Source: Bryum argenteum
Lineage: Eukaryota > Streptophyta > Bryopsida > Bryales > Bryaceae
DNA: 64,000 nucleotides
Assembly (NCBI GenBank): GCA_037043015.1
Contig: CM073322.1
Coordinates: 5,033,601 to 5,097,600, forward strand
Direction: 5' to 3'
Shown: piece after piece, positions 48,646 through 63,727 of the stretch
Layout of the letters: every line of letters begins with the position of its first letter
Position numbering within the stretch: position 1 is the stretch's first letter
Program-made: the position numbers and the translations under genes
Notes under the pieces: model-generated
What the model was told of the DNA's origin: nothing
The model's database searches: none
Seen by the model: only the letters and a program-made list of their open reading frames with translations

Positions 48646-49010
48646 AACCCTTAAACGCCTAGCTATACGGATTTGGGCACCCCAGTATTGGATCAGAGCA
48701 TCTTTTGCACTTGGGCATCATGAATAGTGCACTTTTTGAACTTGGGCATCATGAATGATCCAATCAATGATGAGCTTGCAACCTCCTACAAGTATTGTAC
48801 AACCCCTACCTACCTACCACAATCCTTTCAAACCACAAAATCACTCATACAAATTGTGATTTGAATTCTAAAATTTCTCTTTTTGAATGCATCAGAAGAA
48901 GGTGACCAGTTTGACATCAAAATATAAGTGAAAAGTGGAGTTCATTGAGAGCTACAGAGGAGATTCTGTTGGAAACGGCCCCCTGGGGGCCGCTCAGACG
49001 TTTAAGGGTT
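48646..49010. mobile_element. MITE-like element with AACCCTTAAACG ends
   Basis: The left end AACCCTTAAACGCCT and the right end AGACGTTTAAGGGTT are inverted repeats that match at 14 of 15 positions. The interior has two copies of ACTTGGGCATCATGAAT. No target duplication is clear. It lies just downstream of the last beta-xylosidase exon. Confidence 0.55.
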
Positions 49011-49317
49011 AAGAATGGAGTACATAAGAGGGGTGCTTACAATGGTCAGCTTGTGGTGGACATCTCCGACCATGAGTATATGCACACCCAGAGGCATAGT
49101 TCGATGCCCAGATCTTCACATGGGTTCACTTAGAACACCACTTCTTCTTCCGTCCCTGGTTCCCAGTGCACTCGCTCAAAGTTCACTAGCTGCTTCAATG
49201 GCTCCTGTCCACGCCGCTTGATGGAGACTTTGCGAATAGCCACTGAGTGGCCAGTGGACCCTCGTTTCGTACCGATACCCTCGCATGCCCTACAATGCAA
49301 TTGGATACACAAACAAT

Positions 49318-49589: not shown

Positions 49590-50202
49590 ATGAAAGTTAA
49601 CGACTATAATTTTAATTATAAGATCCAATGTTACTTATAATGTGATTGTAGCATCATGAACAGTGAAAATGAGAATAGTTGGGTAGTATAGTTGAAATGA
49701 ATCTTCTTCTTCACTAATCAAACAACAAGTGAATCACTGTTTCTTCTACTATTTAGATAGACCTGTGCAGGTATCAAGGAGAAGCACACCCAAAAAGTAC
49801 TAAGATTATGTTCAACAGGAACTCGTAATCTTGTCTTCATGATTGCTAACCACGTTATGTGCTTCTCCTTGACAATTCCTTCCTGTGACATTGTCTGCTA
49901 TAGAAAAATGTAGGTATGCAAGATTCAACAGTCTTCGATGTGTTCGTGTCCGATCCCATCCTACACAGATTTTTTACCAAGTACCTTTCTCGATACCACC
50001 TAGAAATGAACAGTTCACACTTAAATGTCATCGACACTTGTTAAACTCAGCAGTCCCCTATTCTTAGTAATCTACTTGTGTGCTATTCGCAAGCTTAACA
50101 ACCACCACGTGGAAGTGTACAGATTCAAGTGAAACCGAGGGTAAGATCATAAGGCTTTGATCATAAGAAGGGATTTGATAGAAGTATCAAGATGTATCAC
50201 CT
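49590..50202 (-). other. Rest of the last intron of the BXL relic
   Basis: No coding sequence, RNA gene or other repeat was recognised here. Confidence 0.5.
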
Positions 50203-50943
50203 TTCTCTTCATCGAGGCACTTGAGACCGGATTTCCTGACGGCCCTGTCAGAGTTACAAAGCTGTTGCCGTAAAGGAGGAGCCATGAGCGACTTGGGTGC
50301 TGTGAATCTGGAATACGAGAATTCAGAGTAGCTCAAACCATTCCCAAACTCCCAGATGGGAGTGTCGGTGAAAAAACGGTATTTTCGGTCTGGATAGCCC
50401 GCAGTCTTGTTGGGCTGCACTTTCATGTTGGACATGTCGATGTTGGTGTAGTTTTCGTGGTACCATTGCTGTGTTAAAGGAACTCCTGCCAATTCTAACA
50501 AACTAAACAGGTCAATTCTAGCACACACAAAAGCAGAAAAGCTATTAAAAAAACTGGCAGGATAAATCGATACCTGGGTTGACGGCTCCGAAGATGACAT
50601 CGGCGATGGCTTGGCACCAAACATGCCAGGATACCCTGTCCACAGAATGCTATGAACCCGAGGGTCTTCATTAGCAAAAGAGACATCCAATGGCCCTCCG
50701 GAGAGAACCACAAGCACCACAGGGCGACCAGAAGCGGTCTCAGCCACAGTCTCCGCCAATTGTTGCTGATATCCTGGTAGGAGCAAAGTCAGTCGATAGC
50801 TTGCCTCCTTTTCTTGTAGTTGGCTTATTTCTACCACCAACACGACCGCATCTGGCTCTTTAGCGGCGCTGTCGGCTGCGGATATCAAATAGGAGGTATT
50901 GCACACCACATCGACACACCCTGGCTCGTAAACAATCTTTGCT

Positions 50944-51467
50944 GAGTGGTCTGAAAGCGCGATGATAGCTCCTGTAGAGGCGATATGAATTTGCAGCCAA
51001 GGAATTCGTGCACTCACCAACAATCCTCCTCTTGTACATTTTGCCACAACAACATCAGCTGGAGTGATTAGTAACACATTCCTTTTTGATGGTCTACTGG
51101 CCCGATTCCATATGCTTAAAAGCTTTAAGCAAGTCCCATTCCTCAAACAATAATCTTACATCTAGATAATAATCCACTAATAGTTCTATCAGTGGTATTC
51201 TTAGTTTTTTAATCAGTAGTTCACAGTAGCCCAGATACACAGCAATGGCACATACGAAGCCTCAAACTGGTAGTACACAATACCAGTAATCCAATCTAAA
51301 TTCGTACATCCACTCTCTTTGTATTTTCAGATATATCATATCATGCGCATGTTAGGAAACAAAATAAACATGAACACTCTTGTGAAACAATTTCTTGATA
51401 AGTTTCCAAAGTGGATGTTATTTTATTCAATACATGTGTCCTTCAGACACAAAAATAAAATAAAATA
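50944..51467. other. Flank between BXL relic and the 11-kb element
   Basis: An open minus-strand frame extends up to 51146 without resemblance to the GH3 barrel, so it is probably intron. Nothing else is recognised. Confidence 0.45.
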
Positions 51468-51471
51468 GTAT

Positions 51472-51595
51472 AACACCGAATTCGTTAATTTTGCACCCAA
51501 GAAGTGCAATGTACATTTGCAATCGGTTTTGACCAAAATCCCTAATTTTTTCAAATTGGTATACCAAACCAGTATCAATGTAGGTATCCTATCTT
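51472..51595 (+). repeat. Left long terminal inverted repeat of the 11-kb element
   Basis: Aligns with the reverse complement of 62302-62428 at about 65-70% by eye, with few gaps. The last clear block is GGTATCCTATCTT (left) against CGTATCCTATTTT (right). Confidence 0.72.
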
Positions 51596-51853
51596 CGTCA
51601 TGACAACGTACACTTAATAAATGTCATTGCAGCAAGCAAAACTTTTATACAAGAATTTTTAAAACGCTCATGAAATTTTATCAACATTTTGGTAAGAATC
51701 GTTCATATGAGAACATGCAATTATTGCGATTTCAAACTCAAATACATCATGACGAAAGAAAGCTTTCATTACTTTACTCCAAAAAAAACATTACATGCTT
51801 TCAGGTCACAAATCAAATATATATTTGACACCATCCAAATATATTAAAACCTA

Positions 51854-54800
51854 TCAATGCAAGTCTGGAGGAGTTTTCGCTATTAACTCGACACTTTCAG
51901 ATTGCGGTCGTTCCTCTCTGATGACAGGTGTAACTCCTCGCCCTTCACGTGGCCGCATCTCCCATGGAATCGAGGGGTCCGCATAATCCATTGCCCCTTC
52001 CGCCACCATAGCATCTATCACTCCAGATGGCACTCGTTCCAACCCTGAATTTTCCTCCAAAATAGACGATGCCTCCACAAAAGTATGGTTGCCTTCTTCA
52101 CCAATGCGGCGAAACCTCACCCCCTCTGGATTGAAGTAGAAACCCTCATTCCCTGGGATCATTGCGTGCTCGGTGTTTGCCCATTCAAAAGGTGACTGCG
52201 AAGACGTTGTCTCTACTGGTAGCGGTAAATCCCTTGTAACCGGTTCTTGATGTGCTCTATGAATTGGACTATTACCAACAGCTTCTCCAATAATGCCCTC
52301 CCCCTCTACCAACTGACTTCTAGGTACCGCATCAAGTGGTCTCGGAGTTTCTTCTGCCCCTCCATCATTGGTACTTGCCGTCCTCATCCTTGATGCGTTC
52401 GTTGTTCTTGGTTGGGTATCATCATCTACTATTGCCGATTGTACAACCGTCTTCCGTCTTCTCTCCAATGGCTCCAAAGATTCTCGACTACGTGTAATCA
52501 TCGGAAACATGATCATCACTATCATCTTCATCGGTTGTAATGAACCTTTCTTCTTCGATTCTTCTTCGAATCTCTTTCATCTCCTCTTCAATTTCATCTT
52601 CGATCCTCCTCTCGCATGTATTTGTTGAAGGTCCTCGCTCGTCCTCGCCAAATTTTGTGGTGGTGATTGTCTCATGAAGCCCTTGAATTCTTGTACTAGG
52701 GTATTGTACAAAAATATTGTTCGGGCTTGAGATTGATCAAGACAAAATTTGTTGCCCTTCGAATCCACCACAAGATCTCCGGAATGGATGTCGTAATCCC
52801 AAATGCCACCAACGTCCATTTAGGATGCAAATACGATTGAACAAGTCTACGCAATTCCATAGGATCTCTCTCTAGCTTGTCAACGCTTGAGGCACCCTTC
52901 CAAATTTGTCCAAGAGTCCGAAAAAGGGTTGGGAGTACATCTTTTTCTTCGGCAAATTCTTGATAGCTCAGTATCAACCGGGTGTTCCATCAACACTACA
53001 ATATTTCCAAGCGCTTGTACTTTGCGTCAAACCCCGCCGCCCTCCTAAAATTCTTTTTGTAATCTTTTAACGGTGTCTCGATTGGAACGCCCAAATCCCT
53101 CTCACGCACGTCATTCCTTCTATGTCACCCGCAACATCCCGCATCTCGTCGCCATAGGTTTCTCCCGGTGGAAATAAAAGACTATAGTCCACCTTAAAAT
53201 CTTACTCATCCACTTTCGTGCCTTACGGCACGCTTTTGTATTCTCCTCTTGTCCAAGCTTTGTCCCGCCATCCATACTCCCCTTCGACAATCGAATACCC
53301 ACAAACAAGGCATTTGCATTTCATGGTATTCATCACTAAAGAATCTGGAACTGCCTCTGATTGGAATCGTTCCCACACTATGGTCTTCATCTCCTTGCTT
53401 GACATCAACTCTCCAATCCCATCGGAAATTTCCTCTTGATCTCCCTCTTATTCCCAAACCTTCGTAACCTCTACCACCAACATTCACGTCTTGAAAATGT
53501 TGTTTCACATGGGCGTTGATTTTCTCTCCAAATTTAACCAAACTCCCCATGGTTTTCACGGATGGCATTGACCAAGTATTCTTCATGTCTTTGTCTATTT
53601 CTCTGCAAGCGCTTGAAAACTGTCTTGCCTTCTCTCCGCTGCATCACACAAACATCTATGTTGTAAAAATCTTCCATGGATGTTGGGTGCTCCATTCCTT
53701 TAGATACTATCAACCACCGCAATGCATTTTGAACTGCGCGTCGACGTTGTAGTCGATCTACTATCCATTCGAGAGTTTGTTTTTCCATAAAACCCCTATG
53801 AGCCCTATTGAAATAGAACTTCTTAAAATTCCTCTTTCCATTTACAATAGGTTTAGCTACCATCTCCTTAGCCAATTGTAGGTACTCCTCAGGTGGTACC
53901 CTTGTTAAAGGCCTCAACCATGTTTTCTCCATCTTTGGTCTTTTTGGTCTTAGATCCCTCGTACTATCCAACCCCTTCCCCTTAGCATACTTCTTCCACT
54001 TTTTCTCATCTGCTTTACTATACCATAAACAACCATCTTCGTAGTCTTTGCACACCTCCAAAATAGCTTTGTAGCATTCTTCATTCTCGTTCCACGCATG
54101 CCTAGTCCAATCCAACATCCGTTTTGCCACTAGTCCCAAAGGCTCCCGTGAAGTCATTTGTACGCTAAGATGCAGCGCACTAGCTGCCATAGCTATTGCT
54201 TTGGCCCGGTTGGCGTCGTGAGCTCTCACCTCCGCATTGGGTTTCCTACAAGACTCCCAGATCTGCCTGAGCTTCACCAATTGGTCTTGTAGTGACATGT
54301 AAAATTTTCTCTCAAACTGCTTTGCATTGATCCGCACAGAGGCCTCAATGTAAAACTGAGGGTTGTTGTATACAACAAATTTTGCTGCCCGTTCTGCAAA
54401 TATACTTGCATATTCTTCTTGAGAGAGTCTTTGGGCCGCCAATTGTTGTTTTGCAAACTTGCATGCTTCTATAATGTGTTGCCCATCCACCGGTTCCCAT
54501 ATTATTGCATTTCGTAACCATTCCGTCTTTAAAATGCCCATTGTATTGTCTTGTTGCCTTTGATACTTCTCAAATACGGTTTTGAAATGGTCCACTGTAT
54601 CCTCCTTCCTGAATGGAACCTCTTTTTCTACTATATTGCCATCACCATCCACTCTCTTTTCAAGAAATGCAACTGGCCGAAGTGTAATGGGGGACACGAG
54701 GTCCTCATCATCTCCTCGTAGACGTTCATATATCTCAGCCATACGCTTCTTTGACAATGCCCGATGGTTGGTTTACTTATCGCACGCCGTACATTCTCCG

Positions 54801-56056
54801 TGCGAATCTTAAACACCGCCTCCATCCCCACACATATCCACTTTAAATTCCTCCTCTGTTGGGAATGCAAATCAGAGGGCCTTTAGTACTTTTCTCCACT
54901 TCTCTTGGTTCTTCCTCATCGGAAGAAGGGTTGTCCAAATCTTCTGATCCCCCGCCCTCTTGCTCTGCTCTGGGAATTTCTGTTAGTATTGTGTTTTGTT
55001 GTACAACACGTGCTTGCCTTCTAGCAGCAGGTGTTTGAGTTTGTGGAGCTCTTGATGTGGGTGATCGTCTTCCACGTCCTCTAGTTGATTCGCTGCCAGT
55101 CTGAGTTGGTGCTACTGATGTAGCTAGTCTTGCACTCCTTGAAATATTAATACTCGTAGGAGTAGTAATATTATGAGCGCTTCGAACTTCTGCTGTAATT
55201 GGAGCTCCACTATGTGTACCTGTTTCAGAACTTTCAGGTCGTCCTCGTGATATTCCTCCTCCACTTGAATTGTTTCCCCTCGATACCGCAACATTTGGCA
55301 CACGTGATGTTGATGCTGGACTTTGAGTAGAAGCACGTGCTGCACTTCTTGCCCTCCTCACGCTAGAAGACGGACCCACTTCTGTAGCCTTCTGTGTTGG
55401 TGTTGGTCTCGTGGCACTTGGAGGTTGTGTTTGTGAAGAAGGTGCCTCTACTGGCTCTGTTTGTAGCATTGGATGTGTGACATGCCCTGGTTGTGATAGA
55501 ATATCATTCCTTACTCTATTTCTAACCACATCTGCATACGATCGATCAGGACTAGTGTGAGGTCCATGTGATGCCGCTCCTGACACTACGAAATCTGGTA
55601 CGTTAGGTCGTTCTTGCTGCTCGATTAAATCCCTTCTTTGCTGAATATACTGATTTCTCAGTTCCAATATCTCCTCAGGATTGCACTGCCTAGCTTTCAC
55701 AATGGCAGCAGTACGTTCCATTCTCACGTCTTCAGTCAAACCTTTCCAAAATGATGCTAAAGAGCGCAATGTTCGGAGCGGTTTTGCGACTTTCAAACAA
55801 CAAATTAGGAATTTCGCGCAAAGATATTCCCTTCTCAATCTTGTATAGGGTCACTACATGCGCACGAGTTCGGACTTTCACTTGAACCAACCCCTCCGGA
55901 ATCGCTACAATTTTCTCAATTTGCCCGACGTCCTTGCCGAGTTGCACAAATCTCGACCACGTACCAACGGGTAGTCCAAATCCATAATCGAGCTTGGTCC
56001 TTGTTTGGAGCCAATACCATCCACCCGCGCTCACTCCATTGACTTTGAGGTGCCAT
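51854..56056 (-). pseudogene. Large unknown transposon protein with ParB/DGQHR-like VDGQH motif
   Basis: A minus-strand gene that can be followed through several single-base frame changes. A likely start is ATG at 56056 (MAPQSQWSERG). Parts in order are: a basic region with GLPVGTWSRFVQLG; MERTAAIVKARQCNPEEILE; a long Ser/Thr/Pro-rich low-complexity linker (about 55650-54950); and FKIRTENVRRAISKPTIG, then SPITLRPVAF and WEPVDGQHIIEA. The last group fits the layout of ParB-like/DGQHR domains (arginine helix, PITL strand, DGQH). The VDGQH codons are 54490-54476. Next come a Trp-rich helical part, a Cys cluster CKCLVCGYSI (about 53320-53290), and an acidic Pro-rich tail ending at 51854. Original length was perhaps 1300 residues. 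No function is established; a DNA-binding or nuclease partner of the transposase is a guess. Confidence 0.6.
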
Positions 56057-56800
56057 GTTTACTGTGTAGATATATCTAATAAACAAACGATAATCAGTAT
56101 ATATATAAAAAATAAAGTTCTTAAGTACTAAATTATCATGTGATAATTTACATTTATCAATGTAATATATTTATAAATATTTATTATTTTAAAAGTGGGT
56201 AAAATGAAAAAAAATAAAAGTTTGTACTTTTACATTGGTTTTTGTAAAAGTAATTTTATTTGTTTATTTTCTAGAAGTTTGAAAGATAGAATTTAACAAT
56301 GTTGTAAGAAATAATGATTTCACAAACACATATAACTTTTGAGTTGACTGAATTTTTCTCGTAGGTTTTGGAAAATCAAATATGAAAACTAAAAAAATCT
56401 AAAAAGATCTATACCCACAAAAATCCACAAATTAAAAAACCTCAAGGCTACAAACCATCACAAGTAAATTCAAAGAATGATTTTGCAATGAAAGTCATGA
56501 GTTACATAAAGCTTTGATTTAATAGAAAATTTAAAACTTGAAAGAAACTTCAAAGCTCAAAATACAACAATTAATACCAAAACCACAAAAACCCACAATC
56601 AAACAAAAAACATAGAACTTGAAAATATTCTTGAAATGAAATTCTAAAATTGCTAAAAAAGAAAAACTACAAAAATAGCAAAAAGTCCAAAAACTACAAA
56701 CGACACAAAATCCCATAACCACATAAAAGCATTGCAATAAAATCCTAAAATTCCAAAATAAACCACAAAAATCTATAAAACCACAACAATATGGAAGAAG

Positions 56801-56835
<35 letters not shown>

Positions 56836-57150
56836 AACTATGGAAATTCTTAAAGCTCCAAAATAAATTTGCAATGAAACCCTAGTATCTCATGAAAAAT
56901 TTATATAAACACAAAAAACAATGAAACAACCAAAAAAATAAAATAAAATACAAAACCCTAAAATTACAAACCCTAACATTGTAAAAGAAAACTTACATGA
57001 ACTTGAAAAAACATGTAAAATTTAGATTCTTAATCATGAAACCCTAATTTGTTTGGTATAAAAGGTTGAAATGGTGGTTAGTTCTTGTTGTTTCAAAAAA
57101 ATCTCACCTCCAAGGTATTTGCAAATTTTCAACTGATGAAAATAAAATGT

Positions 57151-57365
57151 GGGGAGGGGTACTTATACCCTCCCCATGCCTGCTAGCTTGCCCGGGCGGG
57201 CGGCGGCTAGGCGGCGGCTAGCCTGCCCCGGCGGGCGGCGGCTAGGCAGCCAGCCTGCCCGGCAGCCAGGCGGCAAGGCAGCCAGCCAGCCTGCTGCGGC
57301 AGCCTGCCTGCTGCCGGCCAGCACCCCTCCGCGCGTGCGGAGGTCTGCGCTGCCGCAGGGCGGCA
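57151..57365 (+). repeat. GC-rich (CAGC/GGC) repeat block with hairpin
   Basis: A sharply GC-rich island in AT-rich surroundings, made of overlapping GGGCGGCGGCTAGGC, GCAGCCAGCCTGCC and GGCAGCC units. It is bordered by the hairpin at 57151-57175 on the left and TTTTTTAAAATTTT runs on the right. All frames are open only through Ala/Gly/Pro/Arg codons. Its place between divergent genes suggests a promoter-like or structural role, but it may be an inserted minisatellite. Confidence 0.8.
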
Positions 57366-57974
57366 GGTTTTTTTAAAATTTTTTTTAAAATTTTTTTAAA
57401 ATTTTTTTTTTTCATTTTTTTTAATTTTTTTTTTTCATTTTTTTTTTTTTTTTTTTTTTCATTTCTGTATAGTAATTGATCTTGTTTTCTTATTTTTATT
57501 TGATTTTTTATTTTGATTTTTTTCTAGTTTTTGTTCTTTTCTTTTCCTTTTCTATTTTCTATTACTTTCTATGGTTTGCTCTAATATTTGCATTGGGAAG
57601 TTGCATCTTCATGTTATTTAGTATGGATAAATAACATGCATGTAGTATTCTCATAAAATATTTCAAGCAACCGTTTATTTCAAATTTTAGTTTACTTTTG
57701 TGTTGTGAGATTCCCAAGTCTGTATGGCTCTAATTTACTCAAATTTGATGATATTGACTTGAAATTTTTTGGGAGCGCCGGTGGCACTATATTAATAGCA
57801 CCTTCGACGATTTTCGATTTTTTAGAAATAAAATAGAATTTCCATAAATATGACATTTTATAGTGAATTAAAATCATGTAGACAACCTCGTATTATAATC
57901 TACTCTCATTTGTATTATCAAACCAAAATATACATTTTTACATTACCAAAAATTAAAAGGGGAATCTCTACGTT

Positions 57975-58188
57975 TTTTTGTCAAACGCTACGCAAGTAAA
58001 GGAATGTCCTAGGTCTTGCTTTAGTAATGTTCCTACAAAATTAAGTAAAGTTATTATATTGATGAAAAACTTTGTTTACTATTTTAAGTATTTAAAATTG
58101 GAAAAATTGCTAGAGCAAGTACCAAGATGTTGTTTTGCTTGGACAACATTTCCAAAAACCTTGCAAATCCCTAGTAGTGTTCTAGTAG
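57975..58188 (+). mobile_element. Diverged CACTA-type MITE
   Basis: Resembles the 269-bp MITEs loosely: AAACGCTACGCAAGT, TTGCTxTAGTAATGTTC, TTGCTAGAGCAAGTACCAA, ACCTTGCAAATCCCTAGTAG and a final TTCTAGTAG. The left end is lost. Its age would set a minimum for the host element. Confidence 0.45.
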
Positions 58189-58941
58189 TTTTCTTTATAA
58201 ATTTCCATACGTGATTACAAGCTTTGAGGTACAAGGGGCATGCACATATTATACTAATAATAATTTATGCTTAGAATCAAAGATCTTGACAAATATGTAA
58301 TTTTGTCTCTTACGACATAATGACATTTCCATATGCGAGACATATAGAGTGTATGTCATACACTATACAAAATTTACTAGTTTTATTTTTAAAGATTGTG
58401 GCATGTGTAACACCCTTATCGGGTATTTGGAATTTAATTGGCTTGAGTTGTAAACATACCTCACGTTTTAAGTCTCTCAAAATAGAGCTACCTTCATATA
58501 TTGCATGCTATACGTTCATATGGTCTTCTTCAACTTTGTAACTTGTAGCAAAAAACCTACACGTGATTTGGAGTTCAACCTAATCCAAATCTCCCAATAT
58601 TGAATGCTATCAATAAGTTTCGGGTCTCTTAATGAATTTGAGCTTGTCATCCAAAGTGTCCAACTAGGATCTCATAGGTATTACATCAATTTGTGGTTCA
58701 AAATCAAGTGAACCTGATGATTTGGACATTATTAGTAGAGTTTGAAAAACAATGCTTACCTTGAGATTTCTAAGCTTCACATTATGAATGACATAGTGTT
58801 TGTGGGTTTCTTGTTGGTAGATAAAGATGGAGAATTTGGGTTTTGGAAGTCCGATTGTTGGGTATCAAAATGTAGCACCTCCCACAACAAGAACAAATAC
58901 GGTGGGTAGAAGACTTGTCGTAGTCTTGCAAATGACTTTGA

Positions 58942-61900
58942 CAGACACAAACTCTTGGAGAGCAACGGAACTTGAGTACGCCAGATGGAGTTGTAGAGCT
59001 TCTTATAGAGGACGACGTATTGGTAGGGCAAGGATTCGTAGATCAAACCTACAAACCAGGGATGGAATTACATTATTTGAAATTAACCCCGGACGAGGTT
59101 GCAGTGTGTGTAACGGAAGTCTTTCAAGGTTCACTTTGGGTTGGTGAAGTTGTTGGAGAACGCCTTGAACAATGTGTAGGTTTGGTCATTCGTTGGAAGG
59201 CGTCAAACTTGCGAAAAAAATGTGGATTGCCACAGAGAAACATTGGTTTAGAGGAAAGGCAATCATTTACGTTTCAAAATGTGGGAACATCTGCGTTTGA
59301 TTTCGACGATGAAGTTAATCATGGAATGCCGATTCGGATGTCTGAAAGCAACCTAGTGGGCAGCAGTGTCGGGGAACGATCATTACCAGTGACACCGGAG
59401 TCACAATCTAGTGTTGGAGGTGTATTTGAAGTGGAAGGACTGGTGGAAGGTAGACCTCGGAGAAAATATTCGATGCAAAACCGGAGGAGTCGACCAACAA
59501 GAGTACGGGAGAAGGGGGAATCAGCGCAAACAAAAGTGACAATTGAAAGCGTACGGGCAGCAAAGGTCACAGGAGGTTGTACATTAAATTGTTTGAAGCA
59601 TGTGAACGAGAGAGTAATTTTGGACAATCGGTACATGGCATGGGCACAAAAGTATGAGAGCAGAGCTACATGGATCATGCAAATGCTGAATTCATTTTAC
59701 ACACGAACAAATACCAAACGGAAGGAAAAGTTTGACACCAAGCTTGATGGTCATCGTGTATGCAACGCATGCTATGCTCGAGCATTAGGATACTCCCAAA
59801 GGCGTTTCAAACAACTCAAGCAAGCACGATCATTTGTATGGAAAGGTAGTCATGCGTACATGGGAATAATGGTAAGCGAAGGAGCGAGGAAGATATCTGC
59901 GCAGACGAAAAGTTTTGCGGTGTTTGTCAATGAAGTGCGGTGTACCCAACGCATCGACAAGTGAAGAGAAGATCGACGATGCAATATTGCCGTTGATACT
60001 ATTGCCAATGAATACGACAAAAACTGATGTCTTTCATTATGTGAATGAGGAGGTGAAGAAGCTAGTTGATGGACATCCAATATCAATAAGTTCGTTTCAC
60101 AAAATGTGGAGGACTGACTTTCCCCACGTGCAAATTCCACCATTCTCAAGGTTTTCAAAGTGCTTTCATTGCTGGGAGTACAAATGTGGCATGGAATCCA
60201 CAACGAATGAGGCGGCCAAGGCAGAAATCAAAAAATTGTTTTTGGTACACATTAACCGTCAAATGGAAGAGCGTGGAGATTATTGGATTTTCAAAAGGCC
60301 AGCTATCATAACTCCAGATCTTTTCATGAGCATAATCGTAGATGGGATGGACCAAAATACAACAATGGTGCCAAAGATGAAGCAAACAGTGAAAAACATT
60401 GAATGGCGGTTCGTGAAGACACACCTATGCGGAGTGCTTGTGCACGGGATTGGCCTCTATGCAGATGTATGGCTCGATGCACACCACAAGCACGATAGCA
60501 ATCAAGTTGTTACCTCGTTGATGCATGTTATTACGGATGTGAAGAGAAGGAAAGGAATGTTGCCACCAACTTTACGAATTCAAGCGGATAATACGACGCG
60601 GGAGAACAAGAACATATACATGTTCGCCTTGTGTGCTGCACTAGTGGGTATGGGGTTTTTTCAAGAGGTGGGGCTATGTTTTCTATTGGTTGGGCACACA
60701 CACGAAGATATAGACCAACGTTTTAGTACCATTTCAAATACGTTAAAGAGGAGCGACATTGATTCTATGAAGGAGTTACTATCACTAGTCGAGAGAGGAA
60801 CCTCGTATCTGCGAAGCGTATGTGAGTGCGAGGCATTTAGAGAATGTGAGGGATTGGAAGTCTTTCATCACTCCTCATTTGCTCAGAGGTGGCGATACTT
60901 TGACCGGCATAACGTTCCCACATCACATGCGATTTTACATGGTGGGTGGAATGCCTCGAAAGTCGATCTAAGACTTTCGATAAAGATGCTTGGGTTCCAA
61001 TGAGATGGGCATCCATGTTTGAGATCAATGCCTACTAGAGCCGCGAAGCCAATGCTAGCCGAGGTATTTGGGGTGATCTGCAAGGAACTAAGGGCATTAG
61101 AAGATTTTGTGGCCTACAAGGAGAAGTGTGAGAACGATTCCAAAACGTGGAGAAGAACTTGGAAGCCATTGATCAAGCAAAGTGGTTGGCAGATTATTTG
61201 GAACACTTTCCTGAACAAGATAGGAGCACGGCAACAAATGCCCCTTTTTGGCCAGAAGACAATCAAAGCCCAAACAGAGCAACCGTAAATGCACCTGCAA
61301 CTTCTATCGAAAATCAAGATGGAACGTTGGACACGAGCACGGTGGATCTTATAATGAGAACAATGCCTGATCCAGAACGAAGGCAATATTTTGGTCCTCG
61401 TAGGAGAGACCATCGAAGAGGGCTGCGACAAGAGCACCAACAAGACGTAGAACTTCAATACTAGAGTCGCATGTACTAATTACACCAGAGAACGGAGAAG
61501 CTCCGTTTACCCATTTTTGTCCAGATGATGATGTGAAGGTTGGACACTTTGTAGCGCTGACGGTGGATCCCACGGAAGTTCAAGCAGGTGTACCGTTTTA
61601 TATTGGAAAAGTTTTGGAATTTGGTCATGGAAGGTGGGCAACAAAAATGAAGTAGTGTGGTACTGGCCGCAATGGAGGGGATCCCAAGAAATATCATCGG
61701 TTCTTGATAGACAACGGTATTCGAATTGCATGGAGTCAAAGTGGGAGCCATCGGGTGAAAGACATGGATGGGTGGAGAAAGAAGCATCGATTTATTCATG
61801 GGTGGATGAAACACAACATGCAAGAACCAAAGAACCGCAACAACTTTGTATTCCAATACACGTGTGTTTCAACGGAGCGAAGCATCAAAATTCCAATTTT

Positions 61901-61988
61901 TGCAAAACCACACCTTCTAGCATACATTGCAATGCAAGTTGAATACATAGATAACGAACGCCTTCAAAATGATATAGACCGTTATTAG
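58942..61988 (+). pseudogene. DUF7869 protein (putative transposase of the 11-kb element), frameshifted
   Basis: A plus-strand gene read in several frames. The first long frame (58942-59964) has a Ser-rich linker and a Cys-containing region (HRVCNACYARALGYSQRRFK). The next frame (to 61003) holds the conserved core: FHCWEYKCGM, then IVDGMDQNT (60335-60360), QADNTTRENKN (60581-60613) and LLVGHTHEDIDQRFS (60680-60730). These are the signature segments of DUF7869, seen in many plant, algal and animal genes of unknown role. Spaced acidic residues (DGMD, ADN..EN, HEDID) would suit an RNase-H-like DDE nuclease; that is inference. The C-terminal part (61147-61988, three frames) has YLEHFPEQDR, PFYIGKVLEFGHGRW and VVWYWPQW. 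Frame breaks occur near 59945, 61000, 61140 and 61655. The 5' end is probably on an upstream exon. Confidence 0.75.
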
Positions 61989-62301
61989 TATAGAGATTAG
62001 GGAGAAATAAATATTTAGAGAAGAGAATGTGTACTTTTAGCAGTGTAAGTTTATTTTAGTGGTAATCATAAATTATGGTTGCTAACTAAAGGAGTTTTAG
62101 AAGTATTAGATTTCTTATACATTACATGTCTTTTTTGTTACAAAGATGCGATAAAGTTTTGGATAACATGGCCATTTATACCACTTGAAGGGGTCTAAAC
62201 TCTGGGAAATGAATGCTACACATGAAAATTTTCAAGATACATTGCATCCAATCATGAGGTTCAATAATTACCAGAAATGAATGTTTCTTTAGAATTTTGA
62301 T

Positions 62302-62428
62302 ATTAAAATAGGATACGACATTCAAGGATGAAATGGTACACCTAATTTCACTAAATGTGATTTTTTGAACCATCCATTTGCAAGTGCATGATTCTACCCC
62401 CAAGTGCAAAAATTCCTAATTCTGTGTT
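62302..62428 (-). repeat. Right long terminal inverted repeat of the 11-kb element
   Basis: Partner of 51472-51595; ends TTCTGTGTT next to GTAT at 62429-62432. Confidence 0.72.
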
Positions 62429-62524
62429 GTATATGATTAATTTGTGAGTAAGGTCCCTTTGTCCCGACGGGTGAGCTCTTCATTTGGTGGTATTCAAAAA
62501 CTAACCCTTATGCTTGGGTTCCCT

Positions 62525-63727
62525 CATTGATGGTTCCTTTGCTTTTTAATATTTATAGCATGTACTTTGTTCCCTTATTCTCCGCTCCTCATGCTTTTGA
62601 AGTATTTTAGCATCTTCTATGTTCCCTTGTTCCTTGTCCCTAATTCCATGTCTTCAATTTTGGTTTCCCATTCTCTATTTTTTGGTTACTGGTTCCGTGC
62701 CTCCAAACTTCCGTCCCCAATTCCCATCCTTTGTTTCTAGTTCCCCCTCCTACAACTTCCCTTTTTGGTTTTCATCATCCGGTTCTCATCATTTTTTCCT
62801 AGTTCCCATCATTCGTTCTCATCCTTTTTCATTCTCAATATTCTCCGTTACAAGTTCCTGTCCTTTGTTCCTATTTCCTAATTCCCCTCCGATGTTCCGT
62901 TGATCTCGTGTTTACTCATTCTTTGCTCCTAAGTATATTGATGTTTCATATTCCTTATTCCCTTGACTCCTTGTTATATTATTGGGATCTAATAAAGCTT
63001 TGATAACAATCAAAAACTGCTTACGAAAACTCTTCAAAATATATATAAAAGTCTTCATGCCATATGTACAAGACCAAATGATGATGGCCATAACCATGCA
63101 TGTATGGATCGCCAATAAGAGATTTCTCTATGTATAAAAGAACACGGTTAGGGTTAGGGTTTTGTTTGTATGTCCTTGGCGATCCTTCCCGGTGGTAAGG
63201 CGGTTGCCGGTGAGAGTCTGGTTTGTTTATTCGTACACGGTATGAAGGGTTTTAAAGATTTTGAAGGATTTCTGTAGGTGGTATTTGATTGTTATTAAGA
63301 ATTTATTAGATCCCATCAATATAACAAGGAGTTGTAGAGACAAGGAACATGAAATGGGAGCAAAGAAAGAGTGAAGGGGAGATTAAGAGAACATCAGAGG
63401 AGAAATAGGAATTGGGATTAAATGATAAGGATTAGGAAATGATGATGGGAACCACTAACAAATAATGGAAACCAAGAACATATTATGGGAAATACAAACA
63501 AATGATGAGAACCAGGGACAAATGACGGAAACCAAAAAGGAAAGTTGTAGGAACTTAGAAGAAATGATGGGAACCGGAGACAAATGACGGAAAACCAAAA
63601 AGGAAAGTTGTAGGAATTTAGAAGAAATGATGGGAACGGGGAATGGGAAACATGCCAAAGCATAGATAACCGAGAAAAAAGAAACGGAGGACATGCTATA
63701 AATTTTTAAAAGTAGGAGAACCATCTA
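62525..63727. repeat. Inverted pair of the minisatellite-bearing repeat family
   Basis: The left arm 62525-63062 is the reverse complement of 63236-63727. Anchors are CTCCTTGTTATATT / AATATAACAAGGAG, GGGATCTAATAAA / TTTATTAGATCCC, and TTTATAGCATGT / ACATGCTATAAAT. The right arm contains degenerate GGAACCAxxxACAAATGATG units, the left arm the reverse. Family members also lie at 38600-39960 in direct orientation. The spacer holds GGTTAGGGTTAGGG (63147-63161). Confidence 0.75.

Follow-up and report, generated by a model that had tools for sequence, protein, structure and literature searches.

The question raised by the 64,000-nucleotide stretch of the moss Bryum argenteum analysed here (contig CM073322.1, positions 5,033,601 to 5,097,600 of the forward strand; this whole stretch is hereafter the window) is whether two divergent genes lying between positions 51472 and 62428 belong to one mobile element and, if so, which of their two products would move it. 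A preliminary description made from the sequence had proposed a possibly undescribed DNA transposon, in which a protein of the DUF7869 family would be the transposase and a partner protein with a ParB/DGQHR-like motif an accessory. The analysis confirmed that positions 51472-62428 are a single DNA transposon, present in many copies genome-wide. The new part is that DUF7869, a domain family whose Pfam title (PF25273) gives no role, is tied to transposon ends and accompanied by a conserved partner.

Ends, copies and target sites of the element

The element is 10,957 bp long and encloses both genes. Its first base, 51472 (AACACCGAATTCG...), was found directly after GTAT and its last base, 62428 (...TTCTGTGTT), directly before GTAT; the termini read AACACCGAATTCG...AATTCTGTGTT, and the GTAT direct repeat reported in the preliminary description is present on either side (Table 1). 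Alignment of the terminal 125 bp of the two sides in inverted orientation gave 82 identities over 128 columns (64%). The gapped alignment score was 24, whereas 1000 shuffles averaged -24.9 and never exceeded 0, and bases 31-125 alone scored 12, with -2 as the highest value of 1000 shuffles. Under strict scoring, the alignment was confined to the first 25 bp, with a score of 25, and shuffles of 400 bp reached 30 (maximum of 200); likewise, the inverted repeat of the ends was absent among the 25 longest of the 55 inverted repeats given by a repeat finder. As the strict 25-bp match lies within the range of the shuffles, the case for long terminal inverted repeats (TIRs) is carried by the gapped alignment and by the copies. 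The length of about 125 bp given earlier is correct and the similarity was kept in a proper alignment, beyond all 1000 shuffles, but the repeats are imperfect.

The search for copies covered 258.8 Mb in 25 contigs, with the window element on contig C2. The left 201 bp gave 8 perfect matches and the right 201 bp gave 12, each including the window copy, among the 40 matches scored of 94 and 98 candidates, respectively. Second copies with matching ends, whose absence would have spoken against a transposon, were abundant: 26 pairs of left and right ends were paired by eye, with spacings of 10.8-25.3 kb. The window copy and 20 others (10.8-12.0 kb) were read, the five remaining pairs (11.8-25.3 kb) being excluded, and these 21 copies aligned end to end across both genes. 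Blocks of 500 bp were 76-100% identical to one reference copy, with the lowest values in the middle of the element, except for three blocks of copy C9:6522525 (51, 44 and 64%). Pairwise identity over aligned bases ranged from 98.3% for the closest copies to 87.4% for the most distant.

A perfect 4-bp duplication flanked 20 of the 21 full copies, 18 being detected by script and two by eye (TAAG and TATT, where the script was misled by a chance AACAC in the flank). Together with those of ten further end pairs described below, the 30 perfect duplications were 87.5% A+T. When the flanks of copy C7:7796237-7807250 were joined with one AATA, they aligned without a break to positions 48734-49012 of the window. 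This unoccupied site with a single AATA demonstrates insertion with a 4-bp duplication, although it does not by itself demonstrate excision. Dispersed copies, a duplication of fixed length, TIRs and an unoccupied site identify the element as a TIR (class II) transposon. The unoccupied site belongs to a dispersed repeat (48675-49012), of which the relative on C7 is occupied by a copy of the element and the one in the window is empty.

The ends also revealed related families. The pattern AACACNNAATTNNNNANTTNTGCACTT, taken from the right end of the window element and the ends of a sister, was found at 268 exact places in the genome, compared to none for a control with the pattern reversed; 100 of these places, spanning C1 to C4:13.2 Mb, were listed. 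All ten further end pairs showed perfect 4-bp duplications. Three of them come from sister families and measure 13-17 kb, each around a DUF7869 place and with inverted repeats of 28 bp carrying at most one mismatch, and the other seven are short forms of 3.8-6.0 kb with ends as in the window family. In the sister copy C5:21304871-21317821 (L053, L049, L050), frames of 1402 (minus strand) and 1125 (plus strand) codons were open between identical 28-bp TIRs of a kind shared with the window family. With both genes open and perfect 28-bp ends, this copy is a natural starting point for experiments. Its next best relative, yet, is 85% identical in DNA (transposase gene, 40 scored matches). In several families, TGCACTTG and GTGCA motifs were seen by eye a short way in from the termini, in inverted or repeated arrangement (51472, 62428 and the C5 sister); they are possible binding sites for the transposase.

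The DUF7869 gene and its partner

The DUF7869 gene named in the preliminary description was recovered as a PF25273 match in an open reading frame (ORF) of the window (E = 4.9e-46) and in the protein of an intact copy (E = 4.3e-50). In copy C4:6035253 the gene is a single open frame of 1053 amino acids (aa), and the window gene differs from an intact copy, at 95% identity, by 15 small insertions or deletions (indels). Homologues of DUF7869 numbered 15 proteins in a first search and 67 in a second, overlapping one, and the named sources were Mytilus, Mercenaria, Strongylocentrotus, Lytechinus, Diadema and Tubulanus, that is, molluscs, echinoderms and a nemertean. A strict scan of prokaryote genomes and viral contigs for the conserved motifs confirmed no relative; thus, DUF7869 looks eukaryotic.

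Over 61 aligned sequences, the near-invariant residues included D505, D508, D587, N588, N593, K594, N595, G622, H623, T624, H625, D627, I628 and D629. In 27 divergent relatives, D587 and D629 were invariant and D505, D508 and D627 near-invariant, whereas E592 and E626 were missing from the lists of residues with 90% conservation. The conserved acids D505/D508, D587 and D627/D629 would fit a DDD triad and are candidate catalytic residues. Therefore, of the acidic centre suggested previously, DGMD, ADN and HEDID held up, but the E of the ADN-EN motif (E592) did not, and conservation points to a DDD set instead. As judged by eye, a strand leads to D505 (IVDGMDQ), followed by two strands (HLCGVLVHG and LYADVWID), a helix, a strand to D587 (LRIQADN), a helix, a strand and a helix that opens with HEDID. 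We take this order of strands and helices to be that of RNase H with a DDD set, and the domain may accordingly be predicted to adopt an RNase-H fold.

DUF7869 is also associated with the ends. A transposon end was found near 37 of 51 DUF7869 places, compared to a mean of 0.48 and a maximum of 3 in 1000 random placements. An end was counted when it had the right orientation and lay at most 5 kb downstream (28) or at most 14 kb upstream (11), and the 51 places are those on C1-C3 and on C4 up to 13.2 Mb, the range over which ends were listed, with three secondary fragments excluded. By this association and by its conservation, DUF7869 is very probably the transposase, and the earlier proposal is supported in the sense that DUF7869 is the best candidate. 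An orphan Pfam domain, present in the host as well as in several animals, would thereby be assigned a role open to testing, that of catalytic domain in a DNA transposase, and genes annotated as uncharacterized could be recognised as transposons by their DUF7869.

The partner gene lies on the opposite strand. Its open frame extends over 986 codons in copy C4:11638442 and over 1402 in the C5 sister. Database searches returned 17 relatives with 28-51% identity, in which WEP.DGQH was near-invariant. In the genome, 52 partner places merged into 30 genes, 24 of which have a divergently oriented transposase gene at most 22 kb away; none of the 30 had a transposase gene on the same strand within that distance. 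The WEP.DGQH motif recalls ParB/DGQHR, although the R of DGQHR is missing in the partner. No ParB/DGQHR profile matched the 17 members in Pfam, PHROGs, NCBIfam or PADLOC, only the motif DGQH[IV] being found and no comparison of profile with profile having been made for ParB, so that the suggested ParB-like nature comes from one motif. The ParB of P1 is of another type. A conserved-motif scan of viral contigs confirmed no relative of the partner, and tblastn of two partner proteins against phages gave no record for one and three records at E 2 for the other. The divergent gene and the motif of the preliminary description (VDGQH, within WEPVDGQH) were thus retained, but its ParB/DGQHR assignment found no profile support; the partner would be a divergent, family-specific protein, probably DNA-binding and ParB-like. 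As a large protein kept by selection and travelling head to head with the transposase, it opens its possible role, in end recognition or against silencing, to experiment.

Both genes are broken in the window copy, and the 21 copies retain the trace of earlier constraint. Among changes present in four or more copies, codon positions 1, 2 and 3 were affected 26, 27 and 74 times in the transposase gene (chi-square p 2e-8) and 63, 57 and 121 times over 986 codons of the partner (p 2e-7). When all variable columns were counted, the figures were 128, 136 and 187 for the transposase gene (p 0.001) and 228, 231 and 281 for the partner (p 0.03). These p values, obtained for coding regions only, are rough as the copies share history. 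The third-position bias indicates that both genes were earlier under purifying selection and are now decaying. In three of the 21 copies, no frame of at least 250 codons was left but the ends were nonetheless intact, which makes movement in trans likely.

In the transposase region of the 21 copies, 47 of 84 single-base deletions (56%) fell in runs of length 1, for which the background is 51.5%, and runs of 3, with a background of 11.5%, held 15 (18%). The frameshifts are thus not accounted for by homopolymer assembly error alone, and the indels are either real decay or unpolished random read errors in repeats. Many single-base indels were seen in this region although the ends of the aligned copies are nearly identical.

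Placement among transposon superfamilies and rival explanations

The Sola superfamily was reportedly founded in a paper by Bao et al. in 2009. Among the other superfamilies considered, KDZ/Zisupton elements make 8-bp target duplications and were rejected, as the duplication here is of 4 bp; Academ elements carry an Academ transposase together with helicase/nuclease genes. Ginger1 elements have a GC-rich 4-bp target of the CCGG type, TIRs of about 40-270 bp and TGTNR ends (PMC2836005). The element shares with them the 4-bp duplication and the range of TIR length, but Ginger1 was rejected by the AT-rich targets and AACAC ends found here. The piggyBac target is TTAA (PMC7351741), and piggyBac was rejected too, TTAA being only one of the 30 perfect duplications.

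The features of Sola matched better. Sola transposases are of the DDD type and make 4-bp target duplications (PMC10741241), the TIRs measure 11-1124 bp and the elements mostly 2-9 kb, with some above 15 kb (PMC10741241, PMC9033089), and Sola1 has been recorded in Physcomitrella, also a moss (PMC9033089). By comparison with these descriptions, the window family resembles Sola1 in its 4-bp duplication, and its conserved D residues may correspond to the DDD reported for Sola; it is unlike the usual Sola1 of 2-9 kb in that the copies read here measure 10.8-13 kb and carry two large genes. A giant Sola1 of 21.5 kb from the brown alga Ectocarpus, Sola1-1_Ec32, encodes on the opposite strand a partner of 1104 aa with a ParB-like and an N4/N6 methyltransferase domain (PMC12477816). 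Here too, the second gene and the transposase gene lie on opposite strands, although the partner is ParB-like by domain in Ectocarpus and by motif only in the moss. Sola2 elements of dictyostelids have AT-rich 4-bp duplications, TIRs of 12-21 bp and large sizes with extra genes, among them Fanzor1 (PMC3627910); they are similar in duplications, size and presence of an extra gene, but differ in that the TIRs are long here and the extra gene is not Fanzor1. A survey of bivalves found Sola1, Sola2 and Sola3 (PMC10294476). DUF7869 also occurs in bivalves, a co-occurrence with Sola for which no connection has been demonstrated.

The AT-rich 4-bp duplications, the putative DDD set and the existence of an opposite-strand ParB-like gene in Sola1 point to Sola. 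Membership in it, as a Sola1-like family, is therefore probable, with features matched to Sola descriptions. That the element is new at the superfamily level is doubtful, and the term undescribed is probably wrong at that level, given the Sola-like features and the Sola1 with an opposite-strand ParB-like gene already published (PMC12477816).

On this basis, we consider it likely that the window element represents a cut-and-paste TIR family with a DUF7869 transposase and a partner gene, most likely within Sola. We infer excision rather than copying. The plus-strand protein would act as the transposase, with DUF7869 as an RNase-H-fold catalytic domain using D505 or D508, D587 and D627 or D629. 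It would bind the terminal repeats (AACAC...AATT...TGCAC), cut the element out and join it to an AT-rich target opened by a 4-bp stagger, which would leave the 4-bp duplications. The partner of about 1,400 aa, maintained by selection, may help in end recognition, in assembly or in evasion of silencing, and broken copies, that of the window included, would probably be mobilised in trans. The family would be placed in the Sola superfamily as Sola1-like.

Several results weigh against this interpretation. When 27 DUF7869 proteins were compared with Pfam at E values up to 10, no family of RNase H or of transposases was matched, and PDB searches returned either no relative or, at E 4.4, a single unrelated chain. 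For fourteen of the 51 DUF7869 places, no exact end lay in the vicinity; their ends may have diverged from the exact pattern or be of another kind. Similarly, no transposase was found for six of the 30 partner genes. The transposase gene was whole in one of the 21 copies and the partner in none, so that no copy had both. One of the 21, C11:5443548, lacked a matching duplication (flanks AGTC and TAAA), and the duplication of the C5 sister is imperfect (TAAA/AAAA). Finally, the element differs from Sola1-1_Ec32 in its length of about 11 kb, in a partner of about 1,400 aa and in that no methyltransferase was found in the latter.

The lack of a transposase-family match among the 27 DUF7869 proteins speaks for a rival explanation in which the transposon and the role of DUF7869 are as above but the superfamily is its own, with DUF7869 as its defining transposase. 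This agrees also with the term DUF7869 being found in no paper of the literature searched, with a likeness to Sola that is by description, with a partner showing no detectable methyltransferase and with the negative outcome of the motif scan in prokaryotes and viral contigs. Nevertheless, those features that could be compared coincide with described Sola, and a Sola1 with an opposite-strand ParB-like gene is known (PMC12477816); a separate superfamily is thus unlikely, while deserving consideration. A fuller form of it, in which DUF7869 would define a widespread eukaryotic, non-Sola superfamily (the host, molluscs, echinoderms and a nemertean) with a DDD set, AT-rich 4-bp duplications and AACAC ends, and in which a partner of a new family proper to the host lineage would be needed for transposition or escape from silencing, is doubtful to the same degree.

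A further proposal, compatible with a Sola-like cut-and-paste family, concerns the partner, which could be a degenerate fusion of ParB with an N6/N4 DNA methyltransferase that marks the DNA of the element itself, a role already proposed for Sola1-1_Ec32. The succession of C-terminal segments, WVIDCRRGG ... FLLPPG ... ELSRLV..YLP..WGLV, resembles the methyltransferase family when viewed by eye, and the position on the opposite strand, as in the Ectocarpus Sola1-1_Ec32, and the WEPVDGQH motif agree with it. However, comparison by hhalign with six methyltransferases (E. coli YhdJ and five from phages) gave a probability of 0.2%, the same as for unrelated pairs (0.1-0.2%), and thus did not support an N6/N4 methyltransferase. 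An hmmsearch with 19 partner proteins reached at best E 0.51, no better than reversed sequences (0.25), and PF01555 was not found in the 17 members. Across the genome, PF01555 matched 32 short stretches, two of them at or just over the cut-off and none at partner places. Such a fusion is therefore rather improbable.

It is very improbable that the roles are exchanged, with the partner as the transposase or nuclease and DUF7869 as the accessory. The two genes occur paired and both show the codon-position bias, and the partner is the larger protein. Against this, the partner alignment contains 31 invariant columns with D931 as the sole acid (E529, D532 and D621 are near-invariant), whereas DUF7869 keeps spaced near-invariant D residues across distant animals; moreover, partner identity between two families is 29% compared to about 70% for the DUF7869 region, a rough contrast as the spans differ. 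The last alternative, that the genes derive from separate insertions or that the inverted repeats arose by chance, is refuted by the 21 full copies aligned end to end across both genes, the ends, the duplications and the unoccupied site, which indicate a single insertion, and nothing was found in its favour.

Features of the window and flanking sequences

Table 1. Positions of the element, its genes and related sites within the window
Feature	Position	Strand	Remarks
Unoccupied relative of the target of copy C7:7796237-7807250	48734-49012	+	Single AATA, junction unbroken
Left target-site duplication GTAT	51468-51471		Copy comparison
Left terminal inverted repeat	51472-51596	+	About 125 bp, imperfect; strongest over the first 25 bp
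Partner gene	51854-56056	-	Broken here, intact length about 1,400 aa; start and stop from comparison with P0016 and L047
WEPVDGQH motif	Inside ORF 53534-54757	-	ORF reading
Intergenic region between the divergent genes	56057-58826		GC-rich tandem repeats (57185-57322), A/T runs
Putative transposase gene	58827-61988	+	Broken here, 15 small indels; intact in L048:2014-5175 (1053 aa)
First candidate acid pair, both D of VDGMDQ (D505, D508, P0001)	60341-60352	+	Near-invariant in the alignments of 61 and 27 sequences
DUF7869 (PF25273) match	60410-60832	+	In ORF 59915-61003, ORF residues 166-306, E = 4.9e-46
Second candidate acid, D of QADN (D587, P0001)	60587-60589	+	Near-invariant in 61 sequences, invariant in 27
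Third candidate acidic site, GHTHEDID (D627, D629, P0001)	60692-60715	+	Near-invariant in 61 sequences; D629 invariant in 27
Right terminal inverted repeat	62304-62428	-	Alignment to the left end; genome matches of the right end
Right target-site duplication GTAT	62429-62432		Copy comparison

The GC-rich tandem repeats between the two genes consist of units of about 35 bp within an otherwise AT-rich region, and could be a regulatory site or a binding site for the partner. To the left of the element, an ORF at 50187-51146 matched the C-terminal domain of glycosyl hydrolase family 3 (E 2e-15). To the right, two nested imperfect inverted repeats (73-76%) were found at 62848-63438, with arms at 62848-62929/63357-63438 and 62944-63048/63250-63354, followed at 63500-63637 by a 63-bp unit repeated in tandem.

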